From positions 1,116,001 to 1,180,000 of the forward strand of contig NZ_CP121687.1 of assembly GCF_038396635.1 (NCBI RefSeq): a stretch of 64,000 bases of DNA, read 5' to 3'. Of this stretch, positions 13,394 to 38,482 are shown piece by piece. The DNA is from Defluviitalea saccharophila (GTDB lineage: Bacteria; Bacillota; Clostridia; Lachnospirales; Defluviitaleaceae). Every line of letters starts with the position of its first letter. The first letter of the stretch is position 1. The notes beneath the pieces were generated by a model, which was not told where the DNA came from, searched no databases, and saw only the letters and a list, made by a program, of their open reading frames with translations. Made by a program: the position numbers and the translations under genes.

Positions 13394-14071
13394 CTAATGC
13401 TTATACTTCTCTTTAATCGGCTTTGCAGCAAAAGCATATAATATAGCAATCAGTATAAAAGCTTCTGAAAATACAAAAGGTTCAATAGGGTAAACGGTAT
13501 TAAATAACATACACAATCCATCAATGGTTGTCAGAATGTATCCTAAGATAAATAAAAGATATTGACTTCGGGGAAACTTATATTTATATGATCTAAATCC
13601 ATAAAAACACATACATAAAACCATAAGCGTAAAAATTCCTTGAACCATACTCAACCAATGGTTCCAGGGTGAAATAAGCTGCAGCCTATAGCCAAAACCG
13701 TCATGCTTTATGATTTGAATCGGCTGTAAATATATGAGATTCAGATAAAAAAAGATAAATGGAGAAAATAAGAGCAAAACTACCCATTCTTTTATTCTTT
13801 CCCTAAATCTAGGAATGATATACCATAAAGCTAACACCGAAGGAATAGTTATACCTATGGATGAAGCATAATAAAAATAAGAGAAAAACTTTAAAATATC
13901 TATATTAGAACTAAGGGTAAAGACAATTAAAGCAATATACCTGAGTCCTGTAAATGTAAAAAGTATTAAGCAAATACTTCTCAAAATTCTGTTAGGATGG
14001 CCTTTAATTTGTATTATATTAAGAAGTACAATAATTAAAACTGAAAATAAAGGAATAAAAAATGTACTCAT
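13394..14071 (-). CDS. Seven-helix membrane protein of unknown function
   Basis: 225 residues, almost entirely hydrophobic, with about seven predicted membrane helices joined by short basic loops such as PRFRERIKEW and YKYKFPRSQY, and a basic C-terminus (KPIKEKYKH). The layout resembles the 7TM sensor region found at the N-terminus of some histidine kinases, but no kinase or output domain follows. No family was recognised. A G-rich ribosome binding site precedes the ATG. It is divergent from the MATE gene. Confidence 0.65.
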   Translation of the reverse strand: MSTFFIPLFSVLIIVLLNIIQIKGHPNRILRSICLILFTFTGLRYIALIVFTLSSNIDILKFFSYFYYASSIGITIPSVLALWYIIPRFRERIKEWVVLLLFSPFIFFYLNLIYLQPIQIIKHDGFGYRLQLISPWNHWLSMVQGIFTLMVLCMCFYGFRSYKYKFPRSQYLLFILGYILTTIDGLCMLFNTVYPIEPFVFSEAFILIAILYAFAAKPIKEKYKH

Positions 14072-14168
14072 TCCATAATTCCCCCTCCTATATCCTTTCT
14101 ACTATTTTATGTGTATAAAAATTAGTCAATGCAGGAAAGAATGAGAAAGTGGCAGCATTTATCAAAAT

Positions 14169-14177
14169 ATGGTATAA
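14169..14177 (+). promoter_or_regulatory. Extended -10 promoter of the MATE gene
   Basis: TGGTATAAT (TG at 14169-14170, TATAAT at 14172-14177) is a perfect extended -10 element. A GTGGCA hexamer 17 nt upstream is a weak -35. It lies inside the longest possible reading frame of the next gene, so that gene must start downstream. Confidence 0.7.
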
Positions 14178-14232
14178 TCCAAAATGTCTTTTGGGAAAAG
14201 CAACTAGAATATTATTGGAAAGAAGTAATATT

Positions 14233-15630
14233 ATGATTAAGAACTATGCTTCAAAAAAGCTGAACACTGTGCATAATCTGCTTTCAAATACCCAAAAAGA
14301 TGTGCTTGGGATTGCCTGGCCTGTGTTGGTGGAATTGCTTCTCGGCTCATTATTTGGAATGATAGATATGATTATGTTAGGCAGAATAGCAGATCCTGCT
14401 ATAGCAGCCGCTTCCATCTCTGCCGTAGGCATGACCAATCAACCGCTTTTTATCGGCCTTTCCCTTGTGCAAGCATTGAATATTGGGGGAACTGCTATCA
14501 TTGCTCGATATGTAGGAGCAAAACAAACCGATAAGATAGAAAACGTTCTTCAGCACATTATCCTTCTTACCTTGGTTTTACTGGCAATACCACTGTCTTT
14601 AGTGGGTATCTTTTTTGCCGATCCTATCCTTAGCTTTATGGGAGCACAAACGGATACCTTAACCGTTGGAAAAGGATATTTCAGAGTTGTTTCTATTGGA
14701 TTTTTGTTTCAATCTTTTAATTTTGCAATATCTGCAGCCTTAAGGGGTGCAGGCAATACGAAAACCACTATGCGTATTAATTTAAGTGTTAATCTTATTA
14801 ATGTCATAGGGAACGCCATTCTTATTTATGGACTTTTAGGCGTACCACCCCTTGGAGTAACAGGAGCAGGTATATCTACTGCATTCTCACAGTTTCTTGC
14901 CAGCATTATTTTAATCACATATCTCTTTCGAGGAAAAAGTATTATACAATTAACCTTTAAAGAACGTTTTAAGTTTGATAAAGATATTTTAGTCAATTTA
15001 ATTAAAATCGGAGTTCCTGCCTCTTTAGAGCAGATGGCTCTTAGAATAGGTTTACTGCTGTTTGCAAAAATTGTGGCCGGGTTGGGAACGGTTGTTTTTG
15101 CAGCCCATCAAATATGTTTAAGCATTCTCGGACTGTCCTTTAACCCGGGTCAAGCTTTTGGTATTGCAACTTCATCCCTGGTAGGACAAGGACTTGGGGC
15201 AAAAGACCCGGAACGTGCCGAGGCTTATGCAAAAGAATCCAGACGAATTGGATCTTTGATTTCTTCTATTATGGCATTTCTATTCTTTGTTTTTAGTCCT
15301 CAGCTGATTTCTTTATACACCAGCGATCCTGAAATTATCCAAAAAGCTTCCGTTGCATTAAAAATTATAGCTTTGGTGCAGCCCTTTCAGTCTTCTCAAC
15401 TTATACTGGCAGGGGGATTAAGAGGTGCCGGAGATACCTTCTGGCCTCTTATATCCACTTTTATCGGTGTTCTGGGTATTCGAGTCTTTCTGGCCTACGT
15501 ATTGGTTAACTTTTTCAATCTGGGACTTCCCGGCGCCTGGATGGGGGTATTTGTAGATCAATTTGTTCGCTGGGGCATTATTTATATTCGATTTAGAAGT
15601 GGAAAATGGAAAACGGTTACCATCCGATAA
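14233..15630 (+). CDS. MATE-family multidrug/Na+ efflux protein
   Basis: A 465-residue MATE transporter with about 12 membrane helices in two homologous halves. Typical segments are the N-terminal IAWPVLVELLLGSLFGMIDMIMLGR, ALRGAGNTKTTM in the first half and GGLRGAGDTFWPL in the second. These antiporters expel cationic drugs or metabolites using Na+ or H+. The frame is open back to a GTG at 14149, but the promoter at 14169-14177 and the AAAGAAG ribosome binding site before 14233 favour the ATG at 14233, which also gives the family's usual length. Confidence 0.9.
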   Translation: MIKNYASKKLNTVHNLLSNTQKDVLGIAWPVLVELLLGSLFGMIDMIMLGRIADPAIAAASISAVGMTNQPLFIGLSLVQALNIGGTAIIARYVGAKQTDKIENVLQHIILLTLVLLAIPLSLVGIFFADPILSFMGAQTDTLTVGKGYFRVVSIGFLFQSFNFAISAALRGAGNTKTTMRINLSVNLINVIGNAILIYGLLGVPPLGVTGAGISTAFSQFLASIILITYLFRGKSIIQLTFKERFKFDKDILVNLIKIGVPASLEQMALRIGLLLFAKIVAGLGTVVFAAHQICLSILGLSFNPGQAFGIATSSLVGQGLGAKDPERAEAYAKESRRIGSLISSIMAFLFFVFSPQLISLYTSDPEIIQKASVALKIIALVQPFQSSQLILAGGLRGAGDTFWPLISTFIGVLGIRVFLAYVLVNFFNLGLPGAWMGVFVDQFVRWGIIYIRFRSGKWKTVTIR

Positions 15631-27990: not shown

Positions 27991-28563
27991 TTATAATTCA
28001 TACCCCGTTAAAAATGCCTTTTTATTTAATTCAATGGTTTTTGGAGGGACAACTCTTTCGATGGCCTCTTCCCATTCATTTTTTTCTAAGCCCAAATTCT
28101 TTGCCAATATCCCAAGCAATACCGTATTCAGCACTCTTATATTTCCCAACTCTCTTGCTATTTTAAGCGCATCTACAACATAGGTTTGCTTGCAGGCCTG
28201 CTTAATTCTGTCCAGTGTATCACCAGGATACTCTGCAGCACCAGTAATAACCGGCATAGGATTGATTTCCTGATCATTGACAATCGCAATGCCATCTTCC
28301 TTTAAATAGTGAATCCATCGCAGGGCTTCTAATTTTTCAAAGGCCAGAAGAATATCTGCACAACCTTCTTCAACCAAGGGAGAATATACTTTTTCTCCGT
28401 ATCTTACATGGGTTACAACGCTTCCGCCTCTTTGAGCCATTCCATGAACTTCAGACATTTTCACATCATAGCCTTTGTTGATTGCAACGTCTCCAATGAC
28501 TCTGCTGGTTAATAAGGTGCCCTGTCCACCAACACCCACAATAAGTATATTTCTTGTCTTCAT
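27991..28563 (-). CDS. iorB: Indolepyruvate:ferredoxin oxidoreductase, beta subunit
   Basis: 190 residues of the gamma-type POR domain: ILIVGVGGQGTLLTSRVIGD at the N-terminus, a SEVHGMAQRGGSVVTHVR segment and a C-terminal VVPPKTIELNKKAF. With IorA it oxidatively decarboxylates aryl 2-oxoacids from aromatic amino acids to aryl-CoA and reduces ferredoxin. The ATG starts one nucleotide after the iorA stop, so the subunits are co-translated. Confidence 0.94.
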   Translation of the reverse strand: MKTRNILIVGVGGQGTLLTSRVIGDVAINKGYDVKMSEVHGMAQRGGSVVTHVRYGEKVYSPLVEEGCADILLAFEKLEALRWIHYLKEDGIAIVNDQEINPMPVITGAAEYPGDTLDRIKQACKQTYVVDALKIARELGNIRVLNTVLLGILAKNLGLEKNEWEEAIERVVPPKTIELNKKAFLTGYEL

Positions 28564-28564
28564 T

Positions 28565-30289
28565 TTATTCAGCCTCCCTTACGATTGCGCTGCTTCTGCA
28601 AACCCTTGTACAAAGGCCACATCCATTACACAGTGCATCATTGATAATGATTTTTCCATCCTGTTTTTCAATAGAAGGACATCCTAATCTTAAACATAAG
28701 CCGCACTGCACACAGGCATCAGAAATCTTATAGGCCAGTTCTTTTTTCTTCGATAAAAGTGCACAAGGTCTGCTGGCAATAATCACCGATGGTTCCTCTT
28801 TATTCGTTTCTTCCTTAAGAACCGTTTCTACTTCTTTTAAGTCAAAGGGATCTACCACACTTACGTTTTTAATGCCAATAGCTTTGGATAGTTCTACTAA
28901 ATTTAGTACAGGAGCCGGCTCCCCTTTAATGGTTCTTCCCGTAGCAGGATTGTCCTGGTGCCCTGTCATACCGGTCGTAGAGTTATCTAAAATAATGACT
29001 GTCGATATTCCCTTATTATAAACTATATCAATTAAACCCGTAATTCCTGAATGAATAAAGGTGGAATCTCCAATAATACCTACCCATTTTTTTGCAAATT
29101 CTTTTCCTCTTGCTTTCTCTATTCCATGGGCCATTCCAATACTTGCACCCATGCACACACAGGTATCTATGCCTCCCAAGGGCGGAAGTGCTCCTAACGT
29201 ATAACATCCAATATCCCCTGCCGCATGAAGCTTCAGCTTGTTGATAACATAATACATTCCTCTATGGGGACATCCAGGACATAATACAGGAGGACGTCCC
29301 GGTAAGGTTTCAGGAGTTCTAACCGTTAACTCGCGTTTAGCAATTGCTGACGCAATTTTTCTTACACTAAGTTCTCCTTGAACTGAAAATACCTCTTTTC
29401 CTATCGCTGGTATTCCCATACTTTTTACCTGTTCTTCTATAATGGGTTCCAATTCCTCTGCTATATAAAGGGTATCCACTGACTTAGCAAACTCTTTAAT
29501 GAGCTCTTTAGGAAGTGGATGTACCATTCCAAGCTTTAATACCGAAGCTTCTGGAAGGGCTTCTTTGACATATTGATAACTAATACCGCTTGTAATAACC
29601 CCTATTTTTTTATCTGCCCATTCTATTCTGTTGATATCCATTGTATTGGCAGCCTTTGCAAGTTCTTTCATTCTATTTTCAACTACTATATGCCTTTTAA
29701 TGGCCATACCCGGCATCATAACATTCTTTTGAATATTTTTTTCATAGGGCTTGCATTCTACTTCCTGTCTTTCACCCATTTCTACAACACTTTGAGCGTG
29801 AGAAACACGCGTTGTCATACGAACGAAAACCGGCGTATCGTATTGTTCACTAAGTTCCAGGGCAAGTTTCACATAATCCTTTGCTTCCTGGCTATCGGAA
29901 GGTTCAAGCATTGGAATATGAGCAGATCTGGCATAATAACGGCTGTCCTGTTCATTTTGAGAACTGTGCATTCCGGGGTCATCCGCAACGACAATAACTA
30001 AGCCGCCGTTGACGCCAGTATAAGACACAGTAAAAAGAGGGTCCGCTGCAACATTTAATCCAACATGTTTCATGGCAACCATAGCTCTGGCTCCTCCAAT
30101 GGAAGCCCCTATGGCTACTTCCATGGCTACTTTTTCATTGGGAGCCCATTCCGCATAGATCTCATCGTACTTAGCAACCAATTCGGTAATCTCTGTGCTG
30201 GGCGTACCCGGATAAGCCGTCGCTACCCTAACCCCTGCTTCATAGGCTCCTCTGGCAATTGCTTCATTTCCTAACATAAGCTTTTTCAT
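28565..30289 (-). CDS. iorA: Indolepyruvate:ferredoxin oxidoreductase, alpha subunit
   Basis: 574 residues: an N-terminal POR pyrimidine-binding domain (GNEAIARGAYEAGVRVATAYPGTPSTEI), a middle domain, a TPP-binding domain with a GDSTFIHSG...DNSTTGMTGHQDNP motif, and a C-terminal ferredoxin domain with two Cys clusters (CVQCGLCLRLGCP and CNGCGLCTRVC). The first of these has the unusual spacing common in IorA. The start at 30289 follows GGAGG 7 nt upstream; the open frame further upstream crosses the promoter. iorB follows directly. Confidence 0.95.
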   Translation of the reverse strand: MKKLMLGNEAIARGAYEAGVRVATAYPGTPSTEITELVAKYDEIYAEWAPNEKVAMEVAIGASIGGARAMVAMKHVGLNVAADPLFTVSYTGVNGGLVIVVADDPGMHSSQNEQDSRYYARSAHIPMLEPSDSQEAKDYVKLALELSEQYDTPVFVRMTTRVSHAQSVVEMGERQEVECKPYEKNIQKNVMMPGMAIKRHIVVENRMKELAKAANTMDINRIEWADKKIGVITSGISYQYVKEALPEASVLKLGMVHPLPKELIKEFAKSVDTLYIAEELEPIIEEQVKSMGIPAIGKEVFSVQGELSVRKIASAIAKRELTVRTPETLPGRPPVLCPGCPHRGMYYVINKLKLHAAGDIGCYTLGALPPLGGIDTCVCMGASIGMAHGIEKARGKEFAKKWVGIIGDSTFIHSGITGLIDIVYNKGISTVIILDNSTTGMTGHQDNPATGRTIKGEPAPVLNLVELSKAIGIKNVSVVDPFDLKEVETVLKEETNKEEPSVIIASRPCALLSKKKELAYKISDACVQCGLCLRLGCPSIEKQDGKIIINDALCNGCGLCTRVCRSSAIVREAE

Positions 30290-30395
30290 ATTATCCCTCC
30301 ATCTTTCTAGGCACTGTCTGATTTCCTCAGTATTTGAGTTATCCCAAAAATCGAAATATGTAATAACATTCTTAAATTTATAACGATTATATACA

Positions 30396-30424
30396 TTTAT
30401 ACACCAAAAAATAAAAATATTCAA
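30396..30424 (-). promoter_or_regulatory. Sigma-A promoter of iorAB
   Basis: On the minus strand TTGAAT at 30424-30419, 17 nt, TATAAA at 30401-30396. It leaves a leader of about 100 nt before iorA in which I see no riboswitch. The remaining 190 bp up to the divergent NlpC/P60 gene show no other clear signal. Confidence 0.7.
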
Positions 30425-30612
30425 TCTTAACTTTATCACTTTACATTAATATAATAGCACTCTCTTAAAGCTATTTCCATTTATAATTGATATATTTATT
30501 CCTTAAGACAAAATTTTCATGTAGATTGATATATTTTGGAATATTTTTGGTAATAATTAACCATAATACAAAAATGGGTAGATATCAAGAAAGTTGTTAT
30601 AGGAGGATACCA

Positions 30613-31527: not shown

Positions 31528-32036
31528 ATGTCTCAACTTTTACAATGTATTTTTGGAAAACTCCTCGATTTTGCTTTTGATGTATTAAGACCCAATGTTA
31601 CAAACAGTGACAGTCCCAGAGTTCCCATCCGATTTACATCTTCAAGTGAGGAAAAATACTATCCAGTATTACGGTGGACGTTCATGAAAAAAATACAGCA
31701 GTTTGGTTATTTGGAACAATAGGTTTTTTGGTAAATACAGTTATTTTCCCTGGCTCCCTCACATTTAATATTTGGAGAGGAAAACCGTATAAAGGTCAAC
31801 TCATTTTTAGTACTACCGACACAGCTCAAGGAGGAAGAGAGACCAGCATTGGCTTTGACCCTACTTTTCGTAATACCAGCTTTACAGCTACTGACTTCTT
31901 TAAAAATAAGCATTGTAATAAAGTCACGTACTATCTTACAGTTACTTCACAATTAACTTCTGATCCCGAAGATCCGATTGATGTTAGACTCATTGGTCCT
32001 ATCACATTTCTTGCCGGTACGATCCAAAATAAATAA
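31528..32036 (+). pseudogene. Family A paralog 1 (putative spore-surface protein), frameshifted
   Basis: First of three tandem paralogs. Translation from the ATG at 31528 (AAAGGAGG upstream) matches paralogs 2 and 3 up to about residue 48 (SPRVPIRFTSSS...EEKYYPVL). It then leaves the frame and stops at 31722. The remainder of the family match (DVHEKNTAVWLFGTIGF ... VRLIGPITFLAGTIQ) continues in another frame from about 31674 to 32036. Restoring a single base near 31669-31674 gives an alignment without gaps at this point: 13 residues between the conserved K and AVWL in both copies 1 and 2. So it is a one-base deletion, in the genome or in the assembly. No slippery sequence is present. Function unknown. 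Confidence 0.75.
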
Positions 32037-33102: not shown

Positions 33103-33660
33103 TTATTCCGGATCTATACAAGAGAATACATTAAGAGGTATGCCTTCAGTAGGATCTCCCCCTACTAAATAAGCACGAACTGCAACTCTTGTTCCTTCCT
33201 CTGGCGTAACAAGTACCGGATAGGTAAAGTTCGTTTGATAGTCCACAACATTGCCTTCAGAATCTGGATTCGCTGCTACTAATGTGTTTAATACGTTAAA
33301 GGTTATGCCATCATATGTTCCAATCTCAACAATAATACCTTGAGGGGGATCGTCTGGACTAATAAAGTATGCGTGAATACCGGTAATCCTTACTGGTTGA
33401 CCATCGGCATATTCTACAAATCCATTGGAAGCGAATTCGCCTGCAGCAGTACAATTCGGAATAGCATCGAAAAGATCTTCCAGAAGCATATAGATGTCTC
33501 CTTCTGGCGAAAGAGTAGTATTGATGCTACATAGTAAGTCAATAATAGATTGGTCATTGCATTGTTCTGGATCGCCTAAAGCTTCCATGACTGCTTGCAG
33601 CCATCCCTTTAAGCCTTCACCGCAATCTCCCGTACAGAATCTTAATGGATTTTTTTTCAT
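33103..33660 (-). CDS. Family B paralog 1, putative spore-surface protein
   Basis: 185 residues, unknown family. The N-terminal part is helical with Cys residues (RFCTGDCGEGLKGWLQAVMEAL, LLCSINTT); the C-terminal half is strand-rich (ITGIHAYFISPDDPPQGIIVEIGTYDG, YQTNFTYPVLVTPEEG, AVRAYLVGG). It aligns along its C-terminal half with the gene at 34333-34842: KIHA/GIHA, YxTxFxxPxLV, VEV/VAV and a late Cys. No signal peptide. It is acidic overall. A clear sigma-K-like promoter lies upstream and GGAGGA precedes the ATG. Confidence 0.68.
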   Translation of the reverse strand: MKKNPLRFCTGDCGEGLKGWLQAVMEALGDPEQCNDQSIIDLLCSINTTLSPEGDIYMLLEDLFDAIPNCTAAGEFASNGFVEYADGQPVRITGIHAYFISPDDPPQGIIVEIGTYDGITFNVLNTLVAANPDSEGNVVDYQTNFTYPVLVTPEEGTRVAVRAYLVGGDPTEGIPLNVFSCIDPE

Positions 33661-33716
33661 TAAATCTCCTCCTTTTTAAAATTATAAATATTGTGTTAGA
33701 CAATTTCTACTTACTA

Positions 33717-33746
33717 TAGTCTATGAAAGCATTCCATTAGAAGTGC
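33717..33746 (-). promoter_or_regulatory. Sigma-K-like promoter of family B paralog 1
   Basis: On the minus strand GCAC at 33746-33743, 17 nt, CATAGACTA at 33725-33717, about 40 bp before the ribosome binding site. Confidence 0.65.
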
Positions 33747-33854
33747 CTTATTAGTACATTTTTCAGCAAATCTCCAGTAATGACTACATATTTTTTGATG
33801 ATCTCTCTTGATGTTTCGTGCTTATCTTATATACTTTTTTATCTTTGGATTCCG

Positions 33855-34180
33855 TTAATGCTTTTTATTGCTTTTCATCTCCTTTAAATCCATTTTTAAT
33901 TGGTTAAATAATTTTTCTGCCATATTCATTTTTTGAAGGATTGTAATAAATTCATCGAGAAGCCTTTGTAGCTCTGATATGTCTTGCACTACCTCTTCTT
34001 CTAATTCTTCTGGTTCTTTTGTAAATTTTTCTTCCTCTTCTTGCAGCCGCAGGTCTTTTTTTTTACTTCTTTTGGCTCCAGTAAAGTCTTTTCGGCTTTC
34101 TTTCGAAGAGCTTGCTCAATAAAGTCTTCTTTTCTTCTAGACAATTGATAGGAGCCTTTTGGGGATTTTTCTATTTTCAA
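33855..34180 (-). CDS. Small coiled-coil protein needing a -1 frameshift (108 aa)
   Basis: A gene easily missed because no single frame covers it. From a TTG at 34180 (AAGGGAG 8 nt upstream) frame 0 gives 42 residues (KIEKSPKGSYQLSRRKEDF... to ...KEVKKK). It then reaches A9-G at 34064-34055, which is read GTA AAA AAA AAG. Continuing in frame 0 stops after 17 more Lys-rich residues. A -1 shift at A AAA AAG instead joins a 66-codon frame ending at 33855 that is strongly helical and acidic (DLRLQEEEEKF..., ISELQRLLDEFITILQKM). A TGGAG lies 12 nt before the A-run, similar to the SD stimulator at dnaX. It could be programmed frameshifting, RNA polymerase slippage, a mutation or a homopolymer error. 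Own sigma-K-like promoter. Confidence 0.65.
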
Positions 34181-34215
34181 AGTACCATCTCCCTTCTATA
34201 CTTTTTTAGCTACTA

Positions 34216-34245
34216 CATACTATGCACTTTGTCCTTTTGAAGTTC
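34216..34245 (-). promoter_or_regulatory. Sigma-K-like promoter of the small coiled-coil gene
   Basis: On the minus strand GAAC at 34245-34242, 17 nt, CATAGTATG at 34224-34216, about 20 bp before the ribosome binding site. Confidence 0.6.
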
Positions 34246-34274
34246 TATTTTTCGACAACTTTTTTATCTTTTTA

Positions 34275-34310
34275 CAAAAGAAAAAGAATAGTCCGTGGGC
34301 TATTCTTTCA
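34275..34310 (-). terminator. Terminator after family B paralog 2
   Basis: An approximately 12-bp stem (AAAGAATAGTCC with GGGCTATTCTTT) and a T-rich stretch on the minus strand follow the stop codon by about 20 bp. Confidence 0.75.
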
Positions 34311-34332
34311 AAAGATATTTTTAATTAAGGTA

Positions 34333-34842
34333 TTAGTCAATACAATCTTTCTTACAATATACAACAGTTAAAGTACCATATCTGCTCGTTGGAACAAATA
34401 CTCCTCCGGTTGTTGTATAGAAAGCAAGTTCTACTTCTACAGGGCCTTTTACCAACAATGGATGAACAAAGGTTGTTTCGTATCTTTCAACTCCAAGGGT
34501 GATAAGATCATCTCCAAAGCCATCTTGGAAAACAATATTGCCTTCTCTATCTCTAACTGTAATAACTGCAAAATCAACAGGCGGTTCTACTGTGTCTGCA
34601 AATTCAAAAAATGCTGCATGGATTTTTGTAAGTAATACTTTATCTTCTTCAATATCCAATGTAAGCGTAGGCGTTGCAGTGTCTATACTATTCACTGATT
34701 GGGAAACAGAAACGCAAGTTCCTTTTATTTTACTGAGTTTGCACAATAGTCCGCAGCAGCAGTTCTTTAATACCTCTCTTATTGCTTCTAATTGTTGTGG
34801 GATATTTTTTTCTTTGCCCTTATTGCAGCCACCATCTCTCAT
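34333..34842 (-). CDS. Family B paralog 2, putative spore-surface protein
   Basis: 169 residues. The N-terminal third is basic and Cys-rich (NCCCGLLCKLSKIKGTC), followed by a strand-rich domain (LLTKIHAAFFEFADTV, FAVITVRDREGN, YETTFVHPLLVKGP, VEVELAFYTT) and a Cys-containing tail (VVYCKKDC). The strand-rich part aligns with the gene at 33103-33660. The CCC cluster suggests disulfide or metal cross-linking, common in spore coat proteins. No signal peptide. A sigma-K-like promoter lies about 45 bp upstream and GGAGGA precedes the ATG. Confidence 0.68.
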   Translation of the reverse strand: MRDGGCNKGKEKNIPQQLEAIREVLKNCCCGLLCKLSKIKGTCVSVSQSVNSIDTATPTLTLDIEEDKVLLTKIHAAFFEFADTVEPPVDFAVITVRDREGNIVFQDGFGDDLITLGVERYETTFVHPLLVKGPVEVELAFYTTTGGVFVPTSRYGTLTVVYCKKDCID

Positions 34843-34885
34843 ATAAATCCTCCTTTTAAATAAATTTTAGAGTTTTGCTTCACTA

Positions 34886-34914
34886 TATCTTATGAAATAG
34901 TTTTTAAGAAAGTT
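34886..34914 (-). promoter_or_regulatory. Sigma-K-like promoter of family B paralog 2
   Basis: On the minus strand AAC at 34914-34912, 17 nt, CATAAGATA at 34894-34886. It is a full match to CATAnnnTA. Confidence 0.65.
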
Positions 34915-34936
34915 ACAAAATCCGATATTCTTCAAT

Positions 34937-34970
34937 AAAAGTTCTCCTGTTTCTGCAGGAGAACTTTTTT
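34937..34970 (-). terminator. Terminator after family C paralog 1
   Basis: An 11-bp stem (34939-34949 with 34956-34966), with T-rich flanks in both directions. It lies about 14 bp beyond the stop of the gene at 34984. Confidence 0.85.
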
Positions 34971-34983
34971 GAACAAAGGATTC

Positions 34984-35814
34984 TTACTCTTCGTCTTCAT
35001 CACAAGCCTTACGTACTGGAACGTCGTCTATACATCCAAGATCTTCTTTTTGTGGAGGATTGAAAATTTCAAATGGGAAATCCATACTTTCAAATACGTC
35101 ACATGGATTAAGCGGAGAAACCTCTGCACATTCGTTTGGTTTGCAGAAACCTTTAGATTCAACCAGTAAGTTTACTAATCGGAATAACTTAATAATGGAG
35201 AATAATCCTATGGTAAGATTAATATCGTTCAATGCACCCTCAATACAGTCGCATCCTAAGGAGTTTACACAGCCATTCAAGTTAGAATCCAATAATACTG
35301 CTTTTGATTCAACCAATACATATGGTGCTTCCTCTAATACATGGGATTCTGGTTGGAATAAATTGCTTGCAATGGTAATTTCAGAACCTTCGCTTCCAAA
35401 GAGTAATACTGCTTTCTTGAATGTTGTTCCTGCTTCGATAAATTCTCTTTCAACAGTATCGTATCTTAGTATAATTGGGCATCCTTCTGAATTTAAGAAT
35501 GCAAGTTTGAATTTGAAGATGTACTTCACATGTACATTATAATATTTTGGTCTGAAAGCATCCTGCTTTCTGTCGGTTTCGATTTTATATAGTTTGAAAT
35601 CTTTAACTACAATATCTGTAGCTCCTGAAGGTACATTAATAGGTGATCCTTTTCCTGCAGCAATTACTTGCCCGCTTTCAGTTGTAATTGTCTGGCATTC
35701 CATTGAAAAAGGTCTTTCCAGCATTTCAGGTGTCAGGCAATCTTGTTGTCTACATTGGTCGTATACTTTTAATGCTATAATACACTCATCTTTTACTCTG
35801 CTATATGCAGCCAT
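34984..35814 (-). CDS. Family C paralog 1, Cys-rich putative spore coat protein
   Basis: 276 residues, no recognised domain. The N-terminus (KVYDQCRQQDCLTPEML) carries paired Cys. The middle is strand-rich (INVPSGATDIVVKDFKLYKI, YYNVHVKYIFKFKLAF), weakly recalling the SPOCS/DUF3794 pattern of spore coat morphogenetic proteins. The C-terminus has KGFCKPNECAEVSPLNPC and an acidic tail (ACDEDEE). It aligns with the gene at 36015-36956 over the region IGLxxxIKxxxxVxxxxxxKGxCxPxxC. There is no signal peptide, in keeping with assembly from the mother cell. A sigma-K-like promoter is upstream. Confidence 0.7.
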   Translation of the reverse strand: MAAYSRVKDECIIALKVYDQCRQQDCLTPEMLERPFSMECQTITTESGQVIAAGKGSPINVPSGATDIVVKDFKLYKIETDRKQDAFRPKYYNVHVKYIFKFKLAFLNSEGCPIILRYDTVEREFIEAGTTFKKAVLLFGSEGSEITIASNLFQPESHVLEEAPYVLVESKAVLLDSNLNGCVNSLGCDCIEGALNDINLTIGLFSIIKLFRLVNLLVESKGFCKPNECAEVSPLNPCDVFESMDFPFEIFNPPQKEDLGCIDDVPVRKACDEDEE

Positions 35815-35875
35815 ACTATTTCCCCCTTTAATTAGGTTTTAGGATAAGGACTAAGTTTATGGTTTCTCTCACTAC

Positions 35876-35904
35876 CATAATATGTGATGTTAAAAATTGT
35901 GTTC
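35876..35904 (-). promoter_or_regulatory. Sigma-K-like promoter of family C paralog 1
   Basis: On the minus strand GAAC at 35904-35901, 16 nt, CATATTATG at 35884-35876. Confidence 0.6.
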
Positions 35905-35980
35905 CATTATGTAAGGAAAATTTAATTCAGCAAGGAAACGACTACATCGTAAGTAAGACGAACTTTCATATTTTAAGAGC

Positions 35981-36009
35981 AAAACGCCTCCGGCTAGGAG
36001 GCGCTTTTT
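35981..36009 (-). terminator. Terminator after family C paralog 2
   Basis: A 7-bp GC-rich stem (35985-35991 with 35997-36003) flanked by AAAA and TTTTT directly follows the stop codon at 36015. Confidence 0.8.
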
Positions 36010-36014
36010 GAACC

Positions 36015-36956
36015 TTATCGTTTTTTCGGACATTCTTCTGCTGGAGTTGGGTCTTCAACTTCACAGAAACCATGCTTAATCGTTTTTGGCTTGCAGCATA
36101 ATTCCAATGGTTGAATACTTTGTTCGAGAAGATCTCCTTCAACAAAGTCAAGGCATGCATTTTCTGGTTCAATATCAACTGGAATGCATTTTGGTGGTAC
36201 GCAAAGTCCTTTATGAGGAATCTTGTATTGTACAAAGTAAATGGACTTGATATAAAGGGTTAATCCAATGGCTGCACTTAAAGAATCCACATCTAGATTA
36301 ACAACTTTTGCTAATGCCTGAACAACAATGCCTTGACGAAGTGCATTATTTCCATGGTCTCCATCTTCAACAAAGCCTAAGAAGCTGATCACAGGTTCGC
36401 ATTCGCATTTGAGCTTGTAAGAAACACCATATGGTGCATATACATCTATAGCAACGGAAACTGGATTGGTTTCATTATCGAAGTATGGATCTTCTTCGTC
36501 TCCTGGTAAATATTGAATTGTGAAGCATTCTTCTGCAATCACTCTGCAGTTTCGATCAATTACCTTCGCAGCAAAGGTAACGTCTATTTGTGAAAGGGTA
36601 ACTCTTACACAGTTCGGTCTGCGAATTAACGTTTCAACATTGGACCCGTTATCCTTTCCGAAATTAAAATCAATGTCAATAACACGAAGTTCGATTCCTG
36701 CAACATCGTCTCTTTCAAAATCTACATCATCGAAAATTTTGTCTAAGTTGTCAACAACTCTGCAAAGATTGATTCCACATTCATCAAATACAACCGGCGC
36801 TACAATAGTCAATAACTTTGGTTCACCCAATGGGGGACATACACATGCGTCTTCAGCCGGATTGATTGCTTCATCCGGTTTACATACTGGGCATTCGCCA
36901 GTGATAGGTCTTTGGAATATTCTGCCTCTAACTTGATTGTTACCACAACATGCCAT
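36015..36956 (-). CDS. Family C paralog 2, Cys-rich putative spore coat protein
   Basis: 313 residues starting MACCGNNQ (start fixed by AAGGAGGG; the frame is open 13 codons further). The N-terminal 50 residues hold several Cys pairs (ACC, CPVC, CVCPP). The middle is beta-rich, and the C-terminal third has KGLCVPPKC, NACLDF, ELCCKPK, GFCEVE and EECPKKR. Its C-terminal half aligns with the gene at 34984-35814, so the two arose by duplication. Cys spacing suggests cross-linked structural proteins. No enzyme motif is seen. Confidence 0.7.
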   Translation of the reverse strand: MACCGNNQVRGRIFQRPITGECPVCKPDEAINPAEDACVCPPLGEPKLLTIVAPVVFDECGINLCRVVDNLDKIFDDVDFERDDVAGIELRVIDIDFNFGKDNGSNVETLIRRPNCVRVTLSQIDVTFAAKVIDRNCRVIAEECFTIQYLPGDEEDPYFDNETNPVSVAIDVYAPYGVSYKLKCECEPVISFLGFVEDGDHGNNALRQGIVVQALAKVVNLDVDSLSAAIGLTLYIKSIYFVQYKIPHKGLCVPPKCIPVDIEPENACLDFVEGDLLEQSIQPLELCCKPKTIKHGFCEVEDPTPAEECPKKR

Positions 36957-36992: not shown

Positions 36993-37021
36993 CATATTAT
37001 GTGAAAATTGTCGATGTTGTT
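36993..37021 (-). promoter_or_regulatory. Sigma-K-like promoter of family C paralog 2
   Basis: On the minus strand AACA at 37021-37018, 16 nt, CATAATATG at 37001-36993. Confidence 0.62.
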
Positions 37022-37087: not shown

Positions 37088-38482
37088 ATGGCTTGTTTTT
37101 TGAAACTTCGGGACCAAAGCTTAATTCTTGTGGATTTTAATATACGGAACGGTTTATATTATCAAGTTTTCAGAAAGGATCAGCCCTCTCGCCCAAATCT
37201 GCTGCTGTCCAATGGAACCCATGAATATACTGCATTTTTAGACGAAAAAAATAACTTTCACGTGATTGCTAAGAATACGAGAAATCAAATCATACACCTT
37301 AAAGAAAGTGCTGATAAAATTACAAAAGAAGTTTTACTGGATGATCCAAATAATACATTTAAGATAGACAATATTTACGCCATCTCCGTAAAAAATCAAA
37401 TTCATCTTTTTTATTACGCAGATCATCCATCCACCAAAACACCGGAACTGATTTATCATTTGGTCAATGACCCTCTAGCTGCACCAAGGCCTATTGAAAC
37501 CCTTTACAGCCGCAGTATCAATTACGATTGTATCCGAAATAATGGTGATCTTTATTTAGCTGTAATCGTTAAGAAAGAGGATACCTACTCTATAGACCTT
37601 AAACATTTTGAGGACTATAAAGACTTATCGCTTCAAACTTCTACCCCAGTGTCCTCAGAGTTTCCTATCGTATACTGTAAAGTATGTATGGATAAAAACG
37701 GAATCTTGCATTTGATTTATCTTCAGGAACAGTATGGCAAGTTTCAGCTGATACATAAATGCAAAGATAGGGAATGGTCAAAAGAAAATCTGCTTTATTC
37801 CTGCGGGTATCCCATTAAACCGATTATCTTTATATATAATGATGCTTTATGGATTAACTGGAATGAAAATGGCATCATTAAAGCTATTTTATCCGTCGAT
37901 CATGGAAACAGTTTTTCAAAACCAATTCGAGCTTCCATAGAAGATCCTGATATAAGTCTTCATTCTTATGATGCTGAGCCAGAAGCATCCCCCTCACTTA
38001 TTTGTAATCAATTATACGGCGTGACTTACCCCACTCCAAAGTTTGCAGTGCTTCATAGCTTAGATATGGATGGAATCCATTTTAATATGACGCCTAATAC
38101 GGAACTTCAGCTATATCTGAATGCTATTAAAAATGCACTCAATCTTTCTGTTTCAAAATCAGCCCTAGAAGAGGAAAATATTAATCTTAAACATGAAATC
38201 CTTGAGCTTAATCAAATCCAAAGGGATATTACAAACCAATATAACGAACTTGCGGAACTAACGAAGAGAATCCAAGAGGAAGGAAAGAAATGGAGAGAGC
38301 TATATTTTAAAGGAAAAACAGAAATAGATTTTTATAAAAAAAGAGTTAAGCAGTTAGAAAAGTCTTTATCTTCAACTTCTCAAGACTCTGCTGTGGAGAA
38401 GCCGGAACCCAAAGAAGAAAACAATGTGATAGAGTCAGAACAACCTATTCCTCAAGAGTCAGGTGCTTCTGAGGATGAATAG
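37088..38482 (+). CDS. Family D paralog 1, Asp-box beta-propeller with C-terminal coiled coil
   Basis: 464 residues. The N-terminal 330 are repeated four-stranded blade-like units (FLDEKNNFHVIAKN, YAISVKNQIHLFYY, CMDKNGILHLIYLQ), with one BNR/Asp-box-like motif SVDHGNSFSKP (S-x-D-x-G-x-S/T-F) as in sialidase-type propellers. Residues about 355-435 form a coiled coil (LEEENINLKHEILELN, LAELTKRIQEEGKKW), and the tail is acidic. No signal peptide and no sialidase catalytic residues are evident. It shares length, plan and sequence with the gene at 40136-41644. AGGAGG precedes the ATG. Structural or adhesive role at the spore surface is inference. Confidence 0.68.
   Translation: MACFLKLRDQSLILVDFNIRNGLYYQVFRKDQPSRPNLLLSNGTHEYTAFLDEKNNFHVIAKNTRNQIIHLKESADKITKEVLLDDPNNTFKIDNIYAISVKNQIHLFYYADHPSTKTPELIYHLVNDPLAAPRPIETLYSRSINYDCIRNNGDLYLAVIVKKEDTYSIDLKHFEDYKDLSLQTSTPVSSEFPIVYCKVCMDKNGILHLIYLQEQYGKFQLIHKCKDREWSKENLLYSCGYPIKPIIFIYNDALWINWNENGIIKAILSVDHGNSFSKPIRASIEDPDISLHSYDAEPEASPSLICNQLYGVTYPTPKFAVLHSLDMDGIHFNMTPNTELQLYLNAIKNALNLSVSKSALEEENINLKHEILELNQIQRDITNQYNELAELTKRIQEEGKKWRELYFKGKTEIDFYKKRVKQLEKSLSSTSQDSAVEKPEPKEENNVIESEQPIPQESGASEDE

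Follow-up and report, generated by a model that had tools for sequence, protein, structure and literature searches.

The genome of Defluviitalea saccharophila, a single contig of 3.01 Mb, carries a cluster of four genes for cysteine-rich proteins on the minus strand of the 64,000-nucleotide stretch considered here (the window; positions 1,116,001 to 1,180,000 of NZ_CP121687.1). A preliminary description of this DNA had taken the four to be two pairs of paralogous putative coat proteins, contributing to layered or hetero-oligomeric structures at the spore surface. The closest named records are metagenome-assembled genomes labelled Candidatus Epulonipiscium and Vallitalea. The genes, named here A1 and A2 (first pair) and C1 and C2 (second pair), are as follows.

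A1, 33103 to 33660, minus strand: 185 amino acids (aa), 6 Cys; C-terminal half strand-rich-looking; paralogue of A2
A2, 34333 to 34842, minus strand: 169 aa, 8 Cys; NCCCGLLC motif; paralogue of A1
C1, 34984 to 35814, minus strand: 276 aa, 13 Cys; belongs to a class-wide CsxA-like family
C2, 36015 to 36956, minus strand: 313 aa, 20 Cys; second, diverged representative of that superfamily, with additional Cys-rich ends

Read along the minus strand, the order is C2 (36956-36015), C1 (35814-34984), A2 (34842-34333) and A1 (33660-33103), with an additional small gene between A2 and A1, so that the word 'interleaved', used of the pairs previously, is inexact. The reading frames, their strand, their richness in cysteine and the motifs quoted for them were otherwise all found as described: IHAYF/IHAAF and YQTNFTYPVLV/YETTFVHPLLV in A1/A2, and IGLFSIIK...KGFCKPNEC/IGLTLYIK...KGLCVPPKC in C1/C2. 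A further N-terminal motif, (V/K)V(Y/F)D.C....C, which that description did not mention, is common to C1 and C2. Each gene is preceded by a sequence resembling a ribosome-binding site and has a separate upstream region; the start of C2 is placed at 36956, the ATG that follows AAGGAGGG, instead of at 36995. No Pfam or NCBIfam family matched A1, A2, C1 or C2 up to an E-value of 5. Nor did any Pfam family match 26 C1 members or six A2 members; among the same 26 C1 members, five NCBIfam models (four adhesins and one enzyme) matched one member each, none with an expected function.

Homology within the two pairs

Pairwise comparison by BLASTP is marginal for both pairs (E 0.011 for A1/A2 and 3e-4 for C1/C2) and, as a sole basis, was set aside as too weak to decide. 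Orthologues were gathered from relatives, and profiles made separately for each protein were compared using hhalign. The A1 and A2 profiles align with an E-value of 2.9e-8 (Prob 95), and the 94 aligned columns fall in the C-terminal half, the region where their resemblance had been placed. With a narrow C1 profile of 26 rows (26 of the 28 distinct members, one partial protein and one with an unsure start being excluded), C1 and C2 gave E-values of 0.0019 and 0.001, at or near the level of the controls. With a wide C1 side of 89 members that contained no C2 row, the value fell to 4.8e-7 over ~200 columns, nearly the whole protein and including the N-terminal motif, and to 8.9e-8 when the same wide set was compared with another C2 alignment; it is solely with the wide profile that this pair clears the controls.

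In an all-against-all comparison of 21 profiles (210 pairs), as the preliminary description had proposed, the top pairs were prop1/prop2 (two propeller-like genes; 3e-103), T2/T3 (1.5e-43), A1/A2 (2.9e-8) and C2 with wide C1 (8.9e-8), while the best clean control among 203 pairs reached 0.0012. Outside the four putative families, the thrE/thrE2 pair scored 1.3e-6, ahead of the 203 remaining controls; as we take these genes to be two parts of one exporter, the pair was not treated as a clean negative control. Searched against the whole genome, the wide profile without C2 rows matched just C1 (1.7e-80) and C2 (5.7e-6), and short-form homologues of ~215 aa in other genomes match both C profiles. 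The marginal BLASTP values and the narrow C profile are what would be expected if proteins rich in cysteine and strands had merely converged in composition. This explanation is scarcely credible against independently built profiles far beyond the best of 203 controls, a C2-free profile that selects only C1 and C2 from the genome, and short forms that match both C profiles. Chance resemblance was rejected on the same controls. Since the profile values lie well past the controls and the C2-free search recovers C2, the resemblance within each pair is significant and the earlier claim of two paralogous pairs therefore stands.

Spread of the families and their link to sporulation

The two pairs differ in breadth and age. 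C1 is present in 28 of 57 genomes and A2 in six of 57 (D. saccharophila included in both counts), the latter all within one family. Wider sampling, in which class and phylum samples were drawn by the search tool and the phylum is as that tool defines it, placed C1 in 95 of 196 Clostridia genomes, and C-family proteins in 70 of 206 genomes of a Clostridiaceae-like family and, using the wide profile, in 83 of 249 genomes of the phylum. C2 is rare, occurring in two of the 196 class genomes and at six loci in relatives. A1 is absent from two (G004, G006) of the six A2-bearing genomes. A joint A1 and A2 profile gave credible matches in seven of 246 genomes of the order, all of the same family and five of them with two copies; five further matches in four genomes (E 4e-4 to 9e-3) were not considered credible. 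A tree of the C proteins (74 of 95 rows after thinning, proteins of more than 195 aa only, from a short search with no bootstrap) groups C1 with the order-wide gene (support 98, 34 rows). From the difference in breadth between C1 and C2 and their placement in this tree, it follows that the C pair is an old split and not a recent tandem duplication, whereas the A pair is a lineage-restricted novelty at the level of the family. At some loci (L102, L103, L104/L105 and L119) the C1 family is split into separate genes of ~140-190 aa for the N- and C-terminal halves. A C2 relative of 225 aa that lacks the Cys-rich ends occurs beyond the family of the window organism (L114:7925-8602, G089).

Across the 196 Clostridia genomes, the sporulation gene spoIVA was found in 92 of the 95 that carry C1 compared with 55 of the 101 that do not (Fisher p 6.5e-13); these counts take in a weak match in G242 and a partial one in G167, and with both removed the table reads 91/4/54/47. 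In three genomes spoIVA lies in two pieces 6-40 kb apart, broken at the same model position (~400; G106:C2:27145-68041, G172:C1:2487075-2494442 and G224:C1:2863155-2870734), and G071, G131 and G204 hold a similarly truncated piece. The split genes look like those interrupted by skin-type intervening elements.

A second link to sporulation comes from the upstream regions of 26 window genes, which were scored against the sigma-K consensus quoted in PMC5749712. Putative sigma-K promoters of the four genes are listed below.

A1, 33717 to 33745, minus strand: CACT-N16-CATAGACTA
A2, 34886 to 34914, minus strand: AACT-N16-CATAAGATA
C1, 35876 to 35903, minus strand: AACA-N15-CATATTATG
C2, 36993 to 37021, minus strand: AACA-N16-CATAATATG; position matches the sites of its orthologues

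The site listed for C2 has one mismatch to the -10 element and would score 8.0 under the same rule; the top-scoring site of this gene in the window, at -105, differs from the orthologous site. With a cut-off of 8, chosen after the window scores had been seen, six of nine locus genes score at least 8 versus none of 17 others (p 3.6e-4). Among orthologues, 28 of 32 upstream regions reach this score, against 2.1 expected from shuffles that preserve base composition only; A2 accounts for 5/6, C2 for 9/9 and C1 for 12/13, the last being a chosen subset of the available C1 loci.

CsxA and the divergent propeller-like gene

CsxA of Clostridium sporogenes is a Cys-rich protein of 299 aa with 25 Cys (PMC4942563) that self-assembles into a hexagonal exosporium layer (PMC7333573). 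In the literature surveyed, no other lattice protein of a clostridial exosporium has a two-dimensional crystal described for it. The csxA gene is situated between zapA on one side and a gene for a U32 peptidase on the other; it is transcribed divergently from an open reading frame (ORF) that is highly conserved, and collagen-like and glycosyltransferase genes are nearby (PMC7333573). Homologues have previously been reported in other Clostridium species (PMC4942563, PMC7333573). The more distant of them are found at other places than the zapA-U32 location reported for C. sporogenes, and hence that location does not define the family.

The C family occupies this location in a number of genomes. 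The gene pheT was located across the 70 Clostridiaceae-like genomes with a C-family match, 69 of which have both. In 19 of these 69 (a hand count) the C-family match falls within 25 kb of pheT, and in one more it is at 32 kb; ~0.8 would be expected by chance, as roughly estimated from genome size. In the fetched regions pheT is accompanied by a gene like zapA, by C-family genes (one or two), by a propeller-like gene and by genes resembling those for glycosyltransferases and a U32 peptidase, not all in every region, and one region also encodes a collagen-like protein; these names are our own presumptive assignments from the sequences. One member there, L182:6589-7407 (G414; 272 aa, 20 Cys), begins with MAINSKDFIP, the same ten residues that the forward primer published for csxA encodes, and matches the C1 profile at 8.9e-11. 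Of 3612 ORFs, 10 carry a looser form of this N-terminal motif, and all 10 are of the C family. The family profile and the tree assign C1 to the family that occupies the csxA locus, and the C2-free genome search and the wide profile comparisons place C2 in the same superfamily.

The arrangement of neighbouring genes provides a further correspondence, through the gene next to C2.

prop1, 37088 to 38482, plus strand: propeller-like gene, divergent partner of C2; 'propeller' is the label of the preliminary description for a putative fold

A profile made from prop1, prop2 and their relatives was used to search within 700 nt of C genes. A propeller-like gene was found beside 43 of 127 C genes (105 genomes), 39 of the pairs being divergent, four convergent and none tandem; in each convergent case the propeller-like gene sits between two C genes. 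The divergent pair is present in 38 of the 105 genomes, C2/prop1 of the window among them, so that C2, in common with csxA, has a conserved divergent partner. The C2/prop1 pair of G004 was scored as 'none' because its open frames overlap, though its genes are divergent. This layout corresponds to that of csxA and the unnamed divergent ORF next to it, an ORF which, by analogy with the layout in relatives, may itself be propeller-like. No report of a CsxA-with-propeller gene pair was found in the literature on CsxA, the exosporium and Lachnospiraceae spore coats, a search that covered few subscription papers.

Other features of these loci can be noted. The additional small gene between A2 and A1 consists of two overlapping frames.

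Small gene, 33855 to 34180, minus strand: two overlapping frames meeting at A_AAA_AAG

The A run and G of this motif lie at 34055-34064, and a sigma-K-like site is found upstream at 34216-34244. The motif is kept at an identical offset (116), with both frames, in the window, L003 and L051; no stable hairpin was seen downstream of it (z 0.6, -0.8 and -0.9), and L053, in which the A2-A1 gap is short, lacks the gene. Its two frames may be joined by -1 frameshifting or by slippage. The first tandem-family gene of the window (31528-32036, plus strand) is disrupted and reads as a pair of overlapping ORFs (64 and 120 aa), and in the near-identical record L002 the same gene is one intact frame of 169 aa (13921-14430). 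IorA-like genes lie near the spore-surface cluster in the window (27991-30439) and at two Clostridiaceae-like csxA-type loci (L178, L182). A class-V aminotransferase-like gene occurs near zapA and the Cys-rich lattice gene at L115, L116, L173, L177, L179, L180, L183 and L186; it is presumably a cysteine desulfurase, with a small gene that is presumably DUF3343-like beside it at several of these loci.

A putative outer spore layer and its alternatives

We consider it probable (roughly 0.7) that the products of the four genes are structural proteins of the outermost layer of the spore, C1 and C2 as lattice proteins of the CsxA family and A1 and A2 as a lineage-specific pair attached to them. The mother cell would produce all four from the sigma-K-type promoters at a late stage of sporulation. 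C1 and C2, as Cys-rich, strand-rich units, would then most likely self-assemble into a disulfide-cross-linked two-dimensional lattice, as reported for CsxA, whose sheets reportedly require a strong reductant before they dissolve, and could either tile one sheet together or form separate layers. C2 and the propeller-like gene beside it retain the head-to-head layout seen for csxA-type genes across Clostridia, and A1 and A2, with their Cys-bearing N-terminal segments and strand-rich-looking C-terminal halves, most likely bind or decorate the C sheet. The earlier proposal of spore-surface pairs is thus upheld as regards the spore surface, by the promoters and the link to an exosporium lattice family, but the pairs are neither of one event nor of one kind, given the ancient split of C1 and C2 and the absence of A1 from two of six A2 genomes. 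The layered or mixed assembly that it had suggested is conjectural.

The likeness to CsxA (C. sporogenes / C. botulinum group I), an exosporium basal-layer protein, includes size (276 and 313 versus 299 aa), richness in cysteine, a divergent conserved partner gene and association with the spore, the common superfamily being deduced from the N-terminus and gene location of other members (PMC4942563, PMC7333573). The proteins differ from it in cysteine number (13 in C1 and 20 in C2 versus 25), in forming two diverged, adjoining paralogues, in a locus that is not zapA-U32 and in the additional Cys-rich ends of C2; the CsxA lattice has been observed, whereas C1 and C2 are known from their genes. 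Beyond the C. sporogenes group, the F-ENA anchor of Clostridium aceticum, likewise encoded in a spore-surface locus, includes a CsxA-like domain; that anchor is long and also has DUF4183 and DUF11 domains, whereas C1 and C2 stand alone (PMC11952670). The appendage locus of Clostridium taeniosporum (P29a/P29b, CRD1/CRD2, HYPO2/HYPO3) is likewise a pairwise-duplicated spore-surface cluster with sigma-K-type promoters, but its products have DUF11 repeats or are collagen-like, unlike A1, A2, C1 and C2, which lack any Pfam match (PMC5749712). CdeC and CdeM of Clostridioides difficile are Cys-rich and required for exosporium assembly; they are described as rich in repeats, and are likened to the present proteins by description only (PMC6101409).

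Several observations weigh against assigning the locus to a CsxA-type outer layer. The tree places C2 on a branch of 5.2 beside a Clostridiaceae CsxA-like clade with weak support (79). The spoIVA association statistic ignores shared ancestry, and the A1 promoter recurs in just two of four orthologues. The window locus (1.15 Mb) is 1.1 Mb away from pheT (2.28 Mb), C1 has no adjoining propeller-like gene here or in most members of the order, and the csxA primer pattern had no match in the 206 Clostridiaceae-like genomes, among which the source species of the primer thus seems to be missing. PDB sequence searches with A2, C2, the C1 profile, the A2 profile and L182 gave nothing significant. The structural model of C2 is partial (predicted local distance difference test, pLDDT, 56.6; strands over residues 48-173 and 209-247, where 10-residue means are mostly 60-89), and a fold search with it gave no match at E of 0.001 or below and no VIA Z of at least 5; as the model is partial, this empty search says nothing on the fold. 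The link to CsxA is nevertheless strongly indicated, short of proof, by ten N-terminal residues, gene location and layout, in place of the full-length CsxA sequence.

Two other explanations deserve comparison with a CsxA-type outermost layer. In one, C1 and C2 are CsxA relatives that tile the spore coat or crust, these bacteria having no separate exosporium and coat tiling being the general role of the family. The lack of a propeller partner for most C1 genes of the order accords with this, as does the spoIVA association, which suits any coat layer; the family also occurs in many spore formers that are not known to have an exosporium. We nonetheless regard it as unlikely, since locus and layout agree with those of a published exosporium gene and the window retains this layout in C2/prop1. 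In the other, A1 and A2 would build spore appendages (ENA-like fibres) as their subunits, with the Cys-bearing N-termini serving as connectors and the C proteins forming the layer from which the fibres emerge. The small size, strand-rich look and N-terminal cysteine cluster of A1 and A2 would suit such a role; a 2025 preprint describes a clostridial fibre anchored via a CsxA-like domain (PMC11952670), and the C. taeniosporum appendage loci encode duplicated, related proteins with sigma-K sites (PMC5749712). Against this, neither A1 nor six A2 members have a Pfam match; the model of A2 failed (pLDDT 34.5) and is mute on the fold. We regard appendages as the less probable of the two.

Returning to a CsxA-type outermost layer, a broader and quite tentative extension, to which we give somewhat less than even odds, is that the head-to-head pair of a CsxA-type lattice gene and a propeller-like gene (whose product has a coiled-coil-like tail) represents an ancestral outer-spore kit of Clostridia; in the lineage of the window, the anciently separated C1 and C2 would have stayed together and would tile a mixed or two-layer shell, with A1 and A2 as a new pair decorating it. 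As far as our literature searches reach, the breadth of a family that has no curated model, the diverged member C2 and the propeller-like divergent partner are new. A family that very probably contains CsxA reaches about half of the sampled Clostridia genomes without a Pfam or NCBIfam model, and extends to groups such as Lachnospiraceae, where neither CdeC nor CdeM was found in PMC6101409. For many anaerobes of the gut and the environment it offers a concrete candidate for the protein that tiles the outer layer of the spore, and the propeller-like protein is a candidate for the identity of the conserved divergent neighbour of csxA.

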